Positions 1-25,892 of a DNA stretch of 64,000 nt are shown here, piece after piece (the first letter of the stretch is position 1; every line of letters begins with the position of its first letter). Source of the stretch: Cystobacter ferrugineus (GTDB lineage: Bacteria; Myxococcota; Myxococcia; Myxococcales; Myxococcaceae); the NCBI RefSeq assembly GCF_001887355.1, contig NZ_MPIN01000008.1, forward strand, positions 51,935-115,934, in the 5' to 3' direction. Both the position numbers and the translations under genes were made by a program. The notes beneath the pieces are model-generated. The model worked only from the letters and a program-made list of their open reading frames with translations, ran no database searches and was not told the DNA's origin.

Positions 1-80
1 GGGTTCTTCTCAGGAAGCCATCTGGAGGGCTGAAGGCGGTGGGGGGGAACCTCCTTCGACCAGCTCCGACGTGCTCCGAG
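1..80 (-). ncRNA. pxr: Pxr-like small RNA, left copy (3' end outside window)
   Basis: Second copy of the RNA gene at 279-403, cut by the window edge. Read on the minus strand, a -24/-12 promoter at 90-106 predicts a start near 80. The RNA then carries a hairpin whose loop is the same as in the other copy (a run of seven C followed by ACC), flanked by GAAGG/CCTTC arms. It ends at position 1 in the same GAAGAACCC that directly precedes the terminator of the other copy, so its own terminator should lie just outside. Start-to-terminator distance is 80 against 81 bases. Known from memory: Pxr of Myxococcus xanthus blocks fruiting-body development while nutrients last. The name is inferred from location, promoter type and shape. 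Confidence 0.68.
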
Positions 81-89
81 TCTATGCTT

Positions 90-106
90 TAGCACTCCCC
101 ATGCCA
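90..106 (-). promoter_or_regulatory. sigma-54 promoter of left Pxr-like RNA
   Basis: Minus strand reads TGGCATG-N4-GTGCT, close to the sigma-54 consensus TGGCACG-N4-TTGCW, with the invariant GG and GC in place. The same element with identical spacing stands before the other copy (413-429). Predicted start near 80. Confidence 0.75.
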
Positions 107-180
107 CTCCTTCCCTCCACCCAAACCCCAAGGATTCCGGGCACTTGGGCGTCTGGACAGAAGGACTGGAGCCGAGCCGC

Positions 181-226
181 TTTCAGCTCTGCAATGCAGC
201 CCTGCAATCGCCTTTCACATGTGAAA
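181..226. promoter_or_regulatory. candidate activator sites upstream of left Pxr-like RNA
   Basis: Holds TTTCAGC-N-CTGCAA (181-194), a TGCA-N4-TGCA palindrome (195-206), and a perfect 14-bp palindrome centred on CACATGTG (213-226). They lie about 100 to 145 bases upstream of the predicted start, the usual place for an enhancer-binding protein. The first two motifs recur upstream of the right copy. Confidence 0.4.
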
Positions 227-278
227 AGCCCCCAGCCCTTCTCTCCCGGGAGGCGGGGCTCGATCATCTCCTGGGCCC

Positions 279-322
279 AAAAAGAAGGCGGCCCGGAACC
301 CTCGAAGAGGGTACCGGGCCGC
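279..322 (-). terminator. Rho-independent terminator of right Pxr-like RNA
   Basis: Arms 288-303 and 307-322 pair over 15 of 16 positions with a GAA loop (one A/A mismatch), followed on the minus strand by CTTCTTTTT (287-279). One of the clearest intrinsic terminators in the window. Confidence 0.92.
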
Positions 323-403
323 GGGTTCTTCTAAAGGAAACACACCGGAGACACTGAAGCGGTGGGGGGGAACCTCTTCAGCGCCACATCAGCGCGTTCC
401 GAC
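279..403 (-). ncRNA. pxr: Pxr-like small RNA, right copy (about 125 nt)
   Basis: Complete small RNA gene on the minus strand, about 125 bases from the predicted start (403) to the end of the U tract (279). The 5' part folds as CTGAAG/CTTCAG, with an inner GGU/ACC pair closing a C-rich loop. The left copy keeps the loop exactly, while its arms differ in a way that still pairs, which is the mark of selection on structure. A strong terminator follows. The gene lies directly beyond the stop of a sigma-54 response regulator, as Pxr lies beside nla19 in M. xanthus (recalled). I could not compare it with the real Pxr sequence. Confidence 0.75.
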
Positions 404-412
404 TCCAACCTT

Positions 413-429
413 TAGCACGCTGCATGCCA
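413..429 (-). promoter_or_regulatory. sigma-54 promoter of right Pxr-like RNA
   Basis: Minus strand reads TGGCATG-CAGC-GTGCT. The -24 GG and -12 GC are present with the correct 14-base step, and the predicted start is 403. The element and the bases just after it match the promoter at 90-106. Confidence 0.78.
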
Positions 430-504
430 GCCCCTCCGCCGTCTCAAAACCCCGTCATTTCAAGGACTTGAGCGGCGTTCCTTCCCCGAGGGGCACCTTC
501 CGGC

Positions 505-21582: not shown

Positions 21583-22302
21583 TCATCCAGGACGACGAAC
21601 TTCCACGCCCCGGGAACCGGCCACGATGAGCTCCGACGTCAGCCCGAGGAACAGGCCATGCTCCACGATGCCCGCCCGGGCCTGGAGCCGCGCGGCCAGC
21701 GCTTCCGGGTGCTCCAGGGCGCCCCAGGCGCAGTCGAGGATGAAGTGGCCCTGATCCGTCACGAAGGGTGAGCCCTCGGGGCCCAGGCGCTGGGTGACCC
21801 GGGCGCCCAGTCCTTCCAGGTAGAGCGCCTGCGAGCGCCAGCCAAACGGCAGCACCTCCACCGGCACCGCCCAGCGCGTGCCCAGCCGGGGGGACAACTT
21901 GCCCTCGTCCACCACGATGATCACCCGGCGGCTCGCCTGGGCGACGATCTTCTCGCGCAACAGCGCGCCGCCCCCGCCCTTGATGAGCCGCAGCTCCGGG
22001 TCCACCTCGTCCGCGCCGTCGATGCAGACATCCAACACGGGGTGCGCCTCCAACGTGGTGAGGGGGATGCCGAGCGACTCCGCCAGGACCGCCGTCCGCC
22101 GCGACGTCGGCACCCCCTTCACGTCCAGCAGCTTCCCCTCGCCGCGCAGCGCGGCCAGCCGGTGCACCACGAAGGCCGCGGTGCTTCCCGTGCCCAGCCC
22201 CACCACCATGCCCGGCTGGATGGACTCCACCGCGCGCTCGGCGGCCTCGCGCTTGTGCCGGTCGATGTCGTTGGCGGCACCCTTCTCGGGGGATGGGCTC
22301 AT
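21583..22302 (-). CDS. rpiA: ribose-5-phosphate isomerase A
   Basis: 239 aa pentose phosphate enzyme interconverting ribose 5-phosphate and ribulose 5-phosphate. Family motifs are GLGTGSTA (residues 35-42), DGADEVD (with the catalytic acid) and KGGGGALLREK. The start MSPSPEK has GGAG upstream. A candidate terminator/attenuator hairpin and a sigma-54 site lie 90-270 bases upstream (22388-22569), so its expression may depend on that element. Confidence 0.96.
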   Translation of the reverse strand: MSPSPEKGAANDIDRHKREAAERAVESIQPGMVVGLGTGSTAAFVVHRLAALRGEGKLLDVKGVPTSRRTAVLAESLGIPLTTLEAHPVLDVCIDGADEVDPELRLIKGGGGALLREKIVAQASRRVIIVVDEGKLSPRLGTRWAVPVEVLPFGWRSQALYLEGLGARVTQRLGPEGSPFVTDQGHFILDCAWGALEHPEALAARLQARAGIVEHGLFLGLTSELIVAGSRGVEVRRPG

Positions 22303-22387
22303 GGCGGGGCTCCTCGTGTTCGCGGCGCGGGGGGGGAAGTCTTTCGGACAAGGCGCAGCCTGGCCCGAGCCTCGCGCCCGGGCCCGC

Positions 22388-22430
22388 AAAAGATTTGGGG
22401 AGGAGCCGCCCCCCAGCGACTCCTCCCCAA
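22388..22430 (-). terminator. Rho-independent terminator of candidate RNA
   Basis: Perfect 11-bp arms 22395-22405 and 22420-22430 (TTGGGGAGGAG and its complement) around a 14-base loop, followed on the minus strand by ATCTTTTG. Confidence 0.72.
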
Positions 22431-22543
22431 CGAACAACCCCCACTACCGCCCCTGACAGGGCACTCCCCTCCAACAACGCTTCGACCCCCCACCCCCGAC
22501 CTGCCCGCCCCCGACCTGCCCACCCTTCCCCGTCACTGCGTGA
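22388..22543 (-). ncRNA. candidate sigma-54-dependent small RNA or rpiA leader
   Basis: Unannotated transcript predicted from signals alone. A near-consensus -24/-12 promoter at 22554-22569 gives a start near 22543, and an intrinsic terminator ends at about 22388, for some 156 bases. The RNA is G-rich, with a repeated GGGCAGGTCGGGGG motif (about 22490-22518), and no convincing peptide. It may be a free small RNA like the pair at 1-403, or a leader that ends before rpiA unless read through. No homologue known to me. Confidence 0.5.
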
Positions 22544-22553
22544 GCGGACATAG

Positions 22554-22569
22554 AGCATCGCGCGTGCCA
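22554..22569 (-). promoter_or_regulatory. sigma-54 promoter upstream of candidate RNA
   Basis: Minus strand reads TGGCACG-CGCG-ATGCT: the -24 half is a perfect match and the -12 half differs from TTGCT at one base. A palindrome CAGGAG-N4-CTCCTG (22579-22594) lies just upstream and may bind a regulator. Confidence 0.65.
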
Positions 22570-22631
22570 ACGGGTCCACAGGAGGAAACTCCTGGGATTT
22601 CGAGCCCTTGGGTTTCAGAGGAGGAACGGCC

Positions 22632-22670
22632 CGTCCCCGAGCCGGTAAGACTTACACGGAACCGGGGACG
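22632..22670. terminator. hairpin after the SDR gene
   Basis: CGTCCCCG (22632-22639) pairs with CGGGGACG (22663-22670), with further partial pairing inside. It lies 26 bases beyond the stop of the minus-strand SDR gene. No T tract, so it may be a weak or factor-assisted terminator. Confidence 0.35.
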
Positions 22671-22695
22671 GTGAGGGCACCGAAGTGGAGGGCAC

Positions 22696-23574
22696 TCAGG
22701 CGAGCAGCTTGCCGCCGGTGACGCCGAGCACCTCGCCGTTGACGTAGGTGGACTCGTCCGAGGCGAGGAACACGTAGGAGGGCGCCAGCTCGACGGGCTG
22801 ACCGGCGCGGCCGGTGGGGTTGTCCTCGCCGAAGGACTTCACCTTCTCCGCGTCGAAGGAGGCGGGGATGATGGGCGTCCACACGGGGCCGGGCGCCACG
22901 CAGTTGACGCGGATGCCGCGCTCGATGAGCTCCTGGGCCAGGCCCTTGGTGAAGGTGACGATGGCGCCCTTGGTGCACGCGTAGTCGAGGATGTTGGGCG
23001 AGGGCTGATAGGCCTGGATGGAGGCCGTGTTGATGATGGTGGAGCCCTTCTTCATGTGCGGCAGCGCGTAGCGCACCAGGTGGAACATCGCGAGGATGTT
23101 GGTGCGGAAGGTGCGCTCGAGCCGCTCGGAGGAGATCTCCTCGAACTTCTCCACCGCCTTGCCCTGGTAGGCGGCGTTGTTGACGAGGATGTCGATGCGG
23201 CCGAAGCGCTTCACCGTGTCCTCGACGAGGCGGCGGCACACGGCCTCATCCGTGAGATCTCCCCGGAAGGACACCACCTGGTGGCCGGACTCCTCGACGG
23301 CGCGCCGGGTCACCTCGGCGTCCTGGTCCTCGTTGAGGTAGCCGAAGGCCACGTCGGCGCCCTCGCGGGCGAACGCGAGGCACACCGCGCGGCCGATGCC
23401 ACTGTCGCCGCCGGTGACGAGCGCCACCCGGCCCTTCAGCCGGCCGAGCCCCTTGTACGAGGTCAGCCCGTAGTCGGGCTCGGGCGTCATCTTGGCCTCG
23501 AGGGCCGGCGCCGACTGCTCCTGAGGAGGCTGCGGGGGCTGGTTGCCAGCGGAACGCGGATCTTTCTGAGCCAT
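22696..23574 (-). CDS. SDR-family oxidoreductase, general-stress YhdF type
   Basis: 292 aa. A Pro/Gln-rich N-terminal extension (about 45 residues) precedes the Rossmann domain: GGDSGIG cofactor motif, NNAAYQ, catalytic Ser in NTASIQAYQ, and Tyr-Lys in YACTKGA. This long-N-terminus type is common among stress-induced aldehyde/alcohol reductases; the substrate is unknown. The fourth catalytic motif and the PGPVWTPIIP stretch are typical. Stands alone, 102 bases from the rimJ-like gene. Confidence 0.9.
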   Translation of the reverse strand: MAQKDPRSAGNQPPQPPQEQSAPALEAKMTPEPDYGLTSYKGLGRLKGRVALVTGGDSGIGRAVCLAFAREGADVAFGYLNEDQDAEVTRRAVEESGHQVVSFRGDLTDEAVCRRLVEDTVKRFGRIDILVNNAAYQGKAVEKFEEISSERLERTFRTNILAMFHLVRYALPHMKKGSTIINTASIQAYQPSPNILDYACTKGAIVTFTKGLAQELIERGIRVNCVAPGPVWTPIIPASFDAEKVKSFGEDNPTGRAGQPVELAPSYVFLASDESTYVNGEVLGVTGGKLLA

Positions 23575-23676
23575 GTCTGGAAGTCCTCGGGTTGGGTCTA
23601 CCCAGCCCACGGTGGGGAGGCCGGGAGTGACTGGCAACCACCGCGCGAGGACCCCACGCCCGGGAGGCGGGCGGGC

Positions 23677-24380: not shown

Positions 24381-25892
24381 CTAGAAGTAGCGCTTGCGCT
24401 TGCTGCTCGGGAGGATGTTGAGCACCTCCCGGTACTTGGCCACGGTGCGCCGGGCGATCTCCGTGCCCTGGGCCTTGAGCAGCTCGACGATCTTCTGATC
24501 CGAGTAGGGGTTGCGCGGATCTTCCTGGCTGACGAGCTGCTTGATGTGGTGCTTGACGGCCTCGCTCGCGGTGTCGTCGCCGGACACGCGGGCGATGGAC
24601 GAGTTGAAGAAGTACTTCAGCTCGAAGATGCCCTGGGGCGTGTGCACGTACTTGTTCGTCGTCACGCGCGACACGGTGGACTCGTGCATGCCGATGTCCT
24701 CGGCCACGTCGCGCAGGATGAGCGGCTTGAGGTGCGCGATGCCCTGGTCGAGGAACTCGCGCTGGAACTTCACGATGCTCTCGGTGACCTTGTAGATGGT
24801 GCGCTGGCGCTGGTGGATGGAGCGGATGAGCCACTGGGCGCTTCGCAGCTTCTCCTGGATGAACTCCTTGGTCTGCCCGGGGCCCACCCCGCCCGCCTTG
24901 AGCGCGTTGCGGTACATGCCGGAGATGCGCAGCTTGGACAGGCCGTCGTCGTTGAGCACCACCGTGTAGTCGTCCTCCATCTTGTAGACGAACACGTCCG
25001 GGGTGATGAACTGCGCGTCGTCGCCGCTGAAGTTGCGGCCCGGCTTGGGATCCAGGCGCGGCAGGAGCTTGGAGGCCTCCACCACCTCGTCCAGCGGCAC
25101 CTTGAGATCCTTGGCGATCGCCGGGAGGTTCTTGCTCTCCAGGTACTTCATGTGGCGCTTGATGATGAGGCCGAGCAGCGGCGCGTGCTTGTCCTTGAGC
25201 GCGGCCACCTGGATGAGCAGGCACTCCTGCAAGTCCCGGGCGGCGCAGCCCTTGGGCTCCAGGTTCTGGATGCGGCGCAGGGTGCGCTCGGCCACGCTCA
25301 TGGGCACGTCCGCCTCGTTGGCCAGGCGGATGAGGGGGTCTCCCTCCACCTCCTCCAGCTTGAGGTAGCCGTCGTGATCCAGGTTGCCGAGGATGAGCAT
25401 GCCCACGCGGCGCTCGGCCTCGTTGAGCCGCAGCGTGCCGAGCTGCTCCTGCAAGTGGTCGACCAGGTCCTCCTTCTCCACCATGTTGGCTTCGAAGGAG
25501 GGCATGTCGTCCGTGGCCACGTTGCCCTTGTTGGACGCCGTGGTCGGCTCGTTGAACTGGTAGCTGTTGAGGTACGCCTCCCAGTCGATCTCCGGCGGAC
25601 CGTCCTTGTCCGCCTTGAACTCCGTCGCCGTGTCCGGGGTGCGCGCCTCGAAATCCCGGGGAATCTCGGTATTCGCCGCCTCCATGGAGGCCTCGCCCGG
25701 CTCCTTGTCCGTCAAGTCGCCGAAGGGCGCCTCGTCCGGCTGCTCCAGGAGCGGGTTCTGGTCCATCTCCTCCCGGACCTGCTCCAACAACTCCATGCGC
25801 GAGAGTTGCAGCAGCTTGATGGCCTGCTGCAGCTGGGGCGTCATCACCAGCTGCTGCGAAAGCTTCAGGCTCTGCTTGAGTTCCATCGCCAT
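24381..25892 (-). CDS. rpoN: RNA polymerase sigma-54 factor
   Basis: 503 aa. Region I at the N-terminus is Gln/Leu-rich (LKQSLKLSQQLVMTPQLQQA) and holds the polymerase closed until an AAA+ activator acts. An acidic region II follows (about 50-130), then the core-binding domain and the C-terminal DNA-binding part with the helix-turn-helix (HESTVSRVTTNKY) and the RpoN box ARRTVAKYRE that reads the -24 element. Complete in length. Lies downstream of lptB after a 262-bp gap that contains a sigma-54-like site, so self-regulation is possible. Confidence 0.97.
   Translation of the reverse strand: MAMELKQSLKLSQQLVMTPQLQQAIKLLQLSRMELLEQVREEMDQNPLLEQPDEAPFGDLTDKEPGEASMEAANTEIPRDFEARTPDTATEFKADKDGPPEIDWEAYLNSYQFNEPTTASNKGNVATDDMPSFEANMVEKEDLVDHLQEQLGTLRLNEAERRVGMLILGNLDHDGYLKLEEVEGDPLIRLANEADVPMSVAERTLRRIQNLEPKGCAARDLQECLLIQVAALKDKHAPLLGLIIKRHMKYLESKNLPAIAKDLKVPLDEVVEASKLLPRLDPKPGRNFSGDDAQFITPDVFVYKMEDDYTVVLNDDGLSKLRISGMYRNALKAGGVGPGQTKEFIQEKLRSAQWLIRSIHQRQRTIYKVTESIVKFQREFLDQGIAHLKPLILRDVAEDIGMHESTVSRVTTNKYVHTPQGIFELKYFFNSSIARVSGDDTASEAVKHHIKQLVSQEDPRNPYSDQKIVELLKAQGTEIARRTVAKYREVLNILPSSKRKRYF

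Follow-up and report, generated by a model that had tools for sequence, protein, structure and literature searches.

The region between an SDR oxidoreductase gene and rpiA in Cystobacter ferrugineus, within the 64,000-nucleotide stretch of DNA analysed here (the window), contains a small transcription unit predicted on the minus strand, with the following features:

22696..23637, minus strand: SDR oxidoreductase gene (Pfam PF13561), the upstream neighbour
22644..22656, minus strand: enhancer-like palindrome TGTAAGTCTTACC, core GTAAGTCTTAC at 22655-22645, first base 87 bp 5' of the promoter T
22596..22603, minus strand: copy of the TGAAATC box, TCGAAATC, 32-33 bp 5' of the promoter T
22554..22569, minus strand: sigma-54 promoter, -24/-12 element TGGCACGCGCGATGCT, TGGCA and TGC invariant in 49/49 units
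22388..22543, minus strand: predicted noncoding RNA of ~156 nt, 5' end predicted, 3' end at the end of the U-tract
22436..22531, minus strand: G-rich body, G runs with linkers of 1-2 nt, length differing among members
22451..22461, minus strand: small inverted repeat CCCTGTCAGGG, kept in 3/4 own-genus copies of the SDR-rpiA locus
22388..22435, minus strand: conserved intrinsic terminator with long hairpin, GGGGG loop and U-tract (match to covariance model R2, E 2.4e-14)
21583..22302, minus strand: rpiA, ribose 5-phosphate isomerase A (Pfam PF06026), the downstream neighbour, ~86 nt past the unit

The sequence-only reading had proposed a sigma-54-dependent small RNA at this place. Its -24/-12 promoter is confirmed as TGGCACGCGCGATGCT on the minus strand at 22569-22554, with a start predicted at 22543, 12 bases from the C of the -12 element, and its distance of 112 nt from start to stem agrees with the roughly 112 nt that we measured. 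The hairpin and U-rich tail it described are present, but a stem of 11 bp understates the structure, the arms TTGGGGAGGAGTCGC and GCGGCTCCTCCCCAA forming 16 pairs including G-U (stem 22430-22395), followed by the tail ATCTTTT, which ends at 22388. Terminator-like sites numbered 4 against 0.6 expected, and all four correspond to the 22430-22395 hairpin. The window holds three TGGCA-N7-TGC sites, two of them promoters of Pxr copies and the third the unit upstream of rpiA, the only site with a palindrome. Exact matches to the promoter motif alone are as frequent genome-wide as in a backward control (23 vs 23), so the weight of the motif comes from its context. The gene for sigma-54 itself, rpoN (24381-25892, minus strand), lies on the same strand as the unit about 1.8 kb upstream.

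Two features of that context, the palindrome (22655-22645) and the GAAATC box (near 22602-22596), were absent from the sequence-only reading. Sigma-54 promoters require an enhancer-binding protein (bEBP), and activator sites are expected at about -80 to -200 in this promoter class. Across the 49 units compared, the -24 GG and -12 GC stand at the spacing of the class with TGGCA...TGC invariant, and the palindrome, a putative activator site with the family consensus GGTAAGNCTTACC, is centred near -108 from the start. Its offset from the promoter T is -85 to -89 in every unit and -88/-87 in 39 of the 49, and the best match has 0-2 mismatches to the consensus in 35/49. The exact form GTAAGNCTTAC occurs at four sites in the window's own genome, all four inside units, whereas the backward control has none. 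The remaining exact sites of the own genus proved to be further units, and a role for the palindrome as the control site of a protein gene was rejected on this account. Two genomes, G017 and G031, have one palindrome site each without a promoter. Because the module of palindrome and promoter drives nothing else detectable, the palindrome looks like an enhancer dedicated to the RNAs of these units.

The TGAAATC box, found at -33/-32 in 42/49 units, has a wider distribution, as a TGAAAT box also precedes Pxr and other sigma-54 promoters. Among 16 myxobacterial genomes, TGAAAT-N17-42-TGGCA-N7-TGC occurs at 37 sites vs 2 in the backward control; this excess, and the clustering of spacings at an interval of one helical turn, support these as real sigma-54 promoters. 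Outside the family, at loci such as L054, L058, L064 and L066, the box precedes TGGCA-N7-TGC by 27-28 or 37-38 bp, both for Pxr and for mRNA genes. Several of the mRNA genes carry GTGGTGAC...GTCACC-like repeats upstream, and the sites perhaps constitute a second sigma-54 regulon with a box-binding factor. An IHF site at the TGAAATC box was rejected, the consensus being found within one mismatch in just 1/49 units.

A BLASTN search with a 281-bp query recovered the unit between the SDR gene and rpiA in each of the other three genomes of the genus, together with paralogues elsewhere in them and in another genus. Covariance model R2 describes the terminator and model R1 the control region from sequence alone, both built from the first copies. 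With a cut-off of E<=1e-7, R2 gave 52 matches among the 147 genomes searched within the class, and these fall in exactly 14 genomes (4/4 of the own genus, 6/6 of Archangium and 4/7 of the third, a Stigmatella-like genus), with no matches outside those three genera. The window's own genome has five copies and genomes across the family 2-10. The sequence-only reading was thus right about the unit and wrong in treating it as a single new small RNA gene, since the family has at least 52 members with a common enhancer-like palindrome. High-scoring full-length R1 matches, of which the own genome has five, are confined to units and are separated by a gap from weaker, mostly partial matches at other sigma-54 promoters, including those of Pxr, so two independent models recover the same units. 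When the 23 fetched R2 matches held out of model building were examined, the promoter and a palindrome at -84 to -88 were present in 22. In the fetched loci as a whole, a hairpin follows 47/50 of the TGGCA-N7-TGC sites with a palindrome vs 4/54 of those without (104 distinct sites), a contrast enriched by selection because the loci were fetched by searching for these very features; for this reason the held-out set and R1 are the cleaner tests and carry more weight. Two of the three palindrome sites without a following hairpin are cut short where the fetched stretch ends. Reversing the sequence of the fetched loci yielded 21 promoter-like sites, none with a palindrome.

The units share one anatomy, consisting of palindrome, TGAAATC box, -24/-12 element, G-rich body and terminator. 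On sequence grounds they very probably form a sigma-54 noncoding RNA family, and the explanation set out below is likely as far as the family and its sigma-54 control are concerned. A gathering-level Rfam scan of the window and 14 unit loci gave no match for the unit, and the open-licence literature held no paper on such a family or palindrome. We regard the family as previously undescribed, belonging to the known kind of multi-copy sigma-54 small RNAs but with an unusual body of G runs and a seemingly reserved control module. Draft assemblies break in or beside several members (G000:C12:58-195, L188 in G017:C3, L017 and L009), and copy numbers from draft genomes are therefore probably too low. 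Some units occur in pairs with one gene between them, in the own genome (L091/L026 on C1, around an epoxide-hydrolase-like gene of the own genus) and, around other genes, in Archangium (L130, L139), which suggests local duplication.

Among orthologues from three species, identity is 94-100% in the -24/-12 element, 89-100% in the palindrome and 93-100% in the terminator, against just 58-96% in the spacer between box and promoter, while the bodies differ by indels. The terminator covaries, with compensatory changes in 8/17 pairs, for example GGAGC/GCTCC to GGATC/GATCC. No common reading frame is seen among orthologous bodies, which speaks against a small protein and bears out the earlier claim that the unit has no coding role. 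Across members the body spans about 50 to about 1000 nt, and up to the hairpin region it measures 119 nt in the window unit vs 150 in two congeners. About a third of copies add another hairpin, CACTTC(GGGG)GAAGTG, in which the stem sequence changes while remaining paired and the GGGG loop is constant. Very long members, of about 1050 and 820 nt, occur in the third genus (L145 and L147, from G082 and G083) and have a diverged palindrome GTAACTTTTGCC and large arrays of GGGGCAGGACGGGCGG.

The bodies are 57% G, 16% C and 15% A, with G runs mainly of 3-4 bases and linkers mostly of 1-2 nt. Runs of at least three Gs are in excess over shuffled sequences (996 vs 710±14) and runs of at least five are depleted (131 vs 224±10). 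Strict G3 quadruplex motifs are present in 44/47 units and doubled in number (2.70 vs 1.32 per unit in shuffles), but G-quadruplex folding energy shows no gain over composition-matched shuffles, which leaves the G-run pattern no more than suggestive; selection for quadruplexes by energy was rejected.

Comparison of 50 units resolved 24 genomic contexts, of which 12 are common to several species, indicating that copies are stably inherited. Their neighbours are diverse (methyltransferase, M20 peptidase, aconitase, adenosine deaminase, AhpC and others) with no function in common. These observations bear on three other explanations of the unit. It could be a leader or attenuator of the gene downstream, here rpiA, with sigma-54 transcripts stopping at the hairpin and occasionally reading through, an option the sequence-only reading had left open. 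In its favour, unit and rpiA share a strand with about 86 nt between terminator and gene, and this arrangement is kept in 4/4 own-genus genomes. The unit also lies 3' of the SDR gene in those four genomes and in one Archangium, but in that Archangium, where the SDR gene is 83% identical, the gene after the unit is a different one, encoding DUF1826. Upstream of rpiA no unit was found in Archangium, in Myxococcus- and Corallococcus-like genomes, or in the single third-genus genome that yielded an rpiA. The orientation of the downstream gene also varies among copies, being convergent in about 17/49, where its end often lies within 0-40 nt of the terminator. An rpiA attenuator is most unlikely, because rpiA occurs elsewhere without the unit and the Archangium unit precedes the DUF1826 gene, and an RNA acting in trans would be the simplest reading.

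Many dispersed copies, several of them at contig ends, with homology limited to the stretch from palindrome to terminator, would also suit a non-autonomous mobile repeat (MITE- or REP-like) carrying promoter and terminator by chance. Such an origin is very unlikely given positions that are stable across species within genera (the 12 multi-species synteny groups), the lack of any match in the viral contigs searched, and a palindrome-promoter distance held to 5 bp with both sites conserved amid drift, as in a working promoter. Alternatively the function could reside in the DNA, the G-rich non-template strand forming R-loops or G-quadruplexes that mark a site of recombination or chromosome organisation, with the RNA as a by-product; the Neisseria pilE G4 with its small transcript offers a comparison. 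The G runs of 3-4 with short linkers, the near-universal strict G3 motifs and the tandem unit pairs around a gene in two genera would fit a DNA element, but the terminator is among the best-conserved parts and covaries, which suggests that the RNA ends at a defined point, quadruplex energy does not exceed that of shuffles, and the neighbouring genes have no common function. We judge this explanation unlikely.

For a noncoding RNA family acting in trans, we propose that a bEBP binds the palindrome about 108 bp upstream of the start and contacts sigma-54 RNA polymerase at the -24/-12 element, so that all copies would be turned on together. Each copy would then give a short untranslated G-rich RNA ended by the conserved intrinsic terminator, and the G-run body may be a trans-acting, multivalent binding platform that soaks up, as a sponge, either an RNA-binding protein or C-rich RNA, with the dose set by copy number and array length. 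Transcription of the units, like the activator driving it, is here predicted from sequence features. A dedicated bEBP probably acts at the palindrome. A sponge function of the G-rich body is a tentative suggestion. The broadest proposition, that a bEBP has a detectable regulon of dispersed noncoding RNA genes only and that RNAs with G-run arrays of variable length act as a dose-tunable sponge, possibly through G-quadruplexes, making them a new class of regulatory RNA, must be considered doubtful. A scan for GAFTGA found no bEBP gene beside any unit, such genes adjoining Pxr loci only, and proximity thus failed to locate the activator. As sponge targets, CsrA (PF02599) was rejected because it is absent in 8/8 genomes with positive controls, and Pxr because duplex energies are no better than those of dinucleotide shuffles (mean z +0.37, 0/47 below -1.6).

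Sigma-54 activators govern much of myxobacterial development, in which Pxr, likewise expressed through sigma-54, acts as a gatekeeper; this makes a second, larger family of sigma-54 RNAs a concrete lead. If our reading is correct, one branch of the fruiting-body myxobacteria has a hidden set of noncoding RNAs under coordinated control, overlooked by gene callers, and a regulatory-sponge role of G-run RNAs in bacteria becomes testable.

The unit resembles known sigma-54 small RNAs in several respects. The dispersed paralogous genes Qrr1-5 of Vibrio are driven by LuxO-P and sigma-54 (PMC8043402), and a single common activator is likewise proposed here, but the position of the Qrr activator site varies by copy whereas the family palindrome is fixed within 5 bp, and the bodies are unrelated by Rfam, none of the 14 unit loci matching a known family model. 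No pairing region like that of Qrr was identified. CrcZ/CrcY, RpoN-dependent RNAs under CbrB whose repeated A-rich motifs sequester Hfq-Crc (PMC6292655), serve as our model of a sigma-54 sponge RNA built of repeats, and the sponge reading of the family is drawn by this analogy. Their repeats are A-rich in contrast to the G runs of the family body, in which A-rich Hfq/Crc repeats were not found, and Rfam gave no relation between the two.

Pxr (RF01812) is alike in layout, being a myxobacterial small RNA with a sigma-54 promoter, a TGAAAT box and an intrinsic terminator, and the sequence-only reading correctly likened the unit to Pxr-like genes of different sequence. Membership in Pxr was rejected, with no Rfam match and no Pxr match even at E<=10 on 22300-22700. 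Unlike Pxr, the family is dispersed, G-rich and length-variable; the Pxr upstream region in the window lacks the GTAAGNCTTAC palindrome that family units have, and Myxococcus-like genomes, in which Pxr is present, yielded no family member. Pxr adjoins the sigma-54 response regulator nla19 (PMC5568312), a neighbour that the GAFTGA scan did not reveal at the units. In the window, tandem Pxr copies occupy 1-430 (minus strand) with sigma-54 promoters at 429-414 and 106-91, promoter-model matches mark a further copy just outside the window, and the sigma-54 regulator beside them (GAFTGA at about 1355) fits nla19. Five tandem sigma-54 promoter-model matches at a spacing of about 328 bp in another genome (G001, contig C1, 8811711-8813072, minus strand) are perhaps an expanded Pxr-like array.
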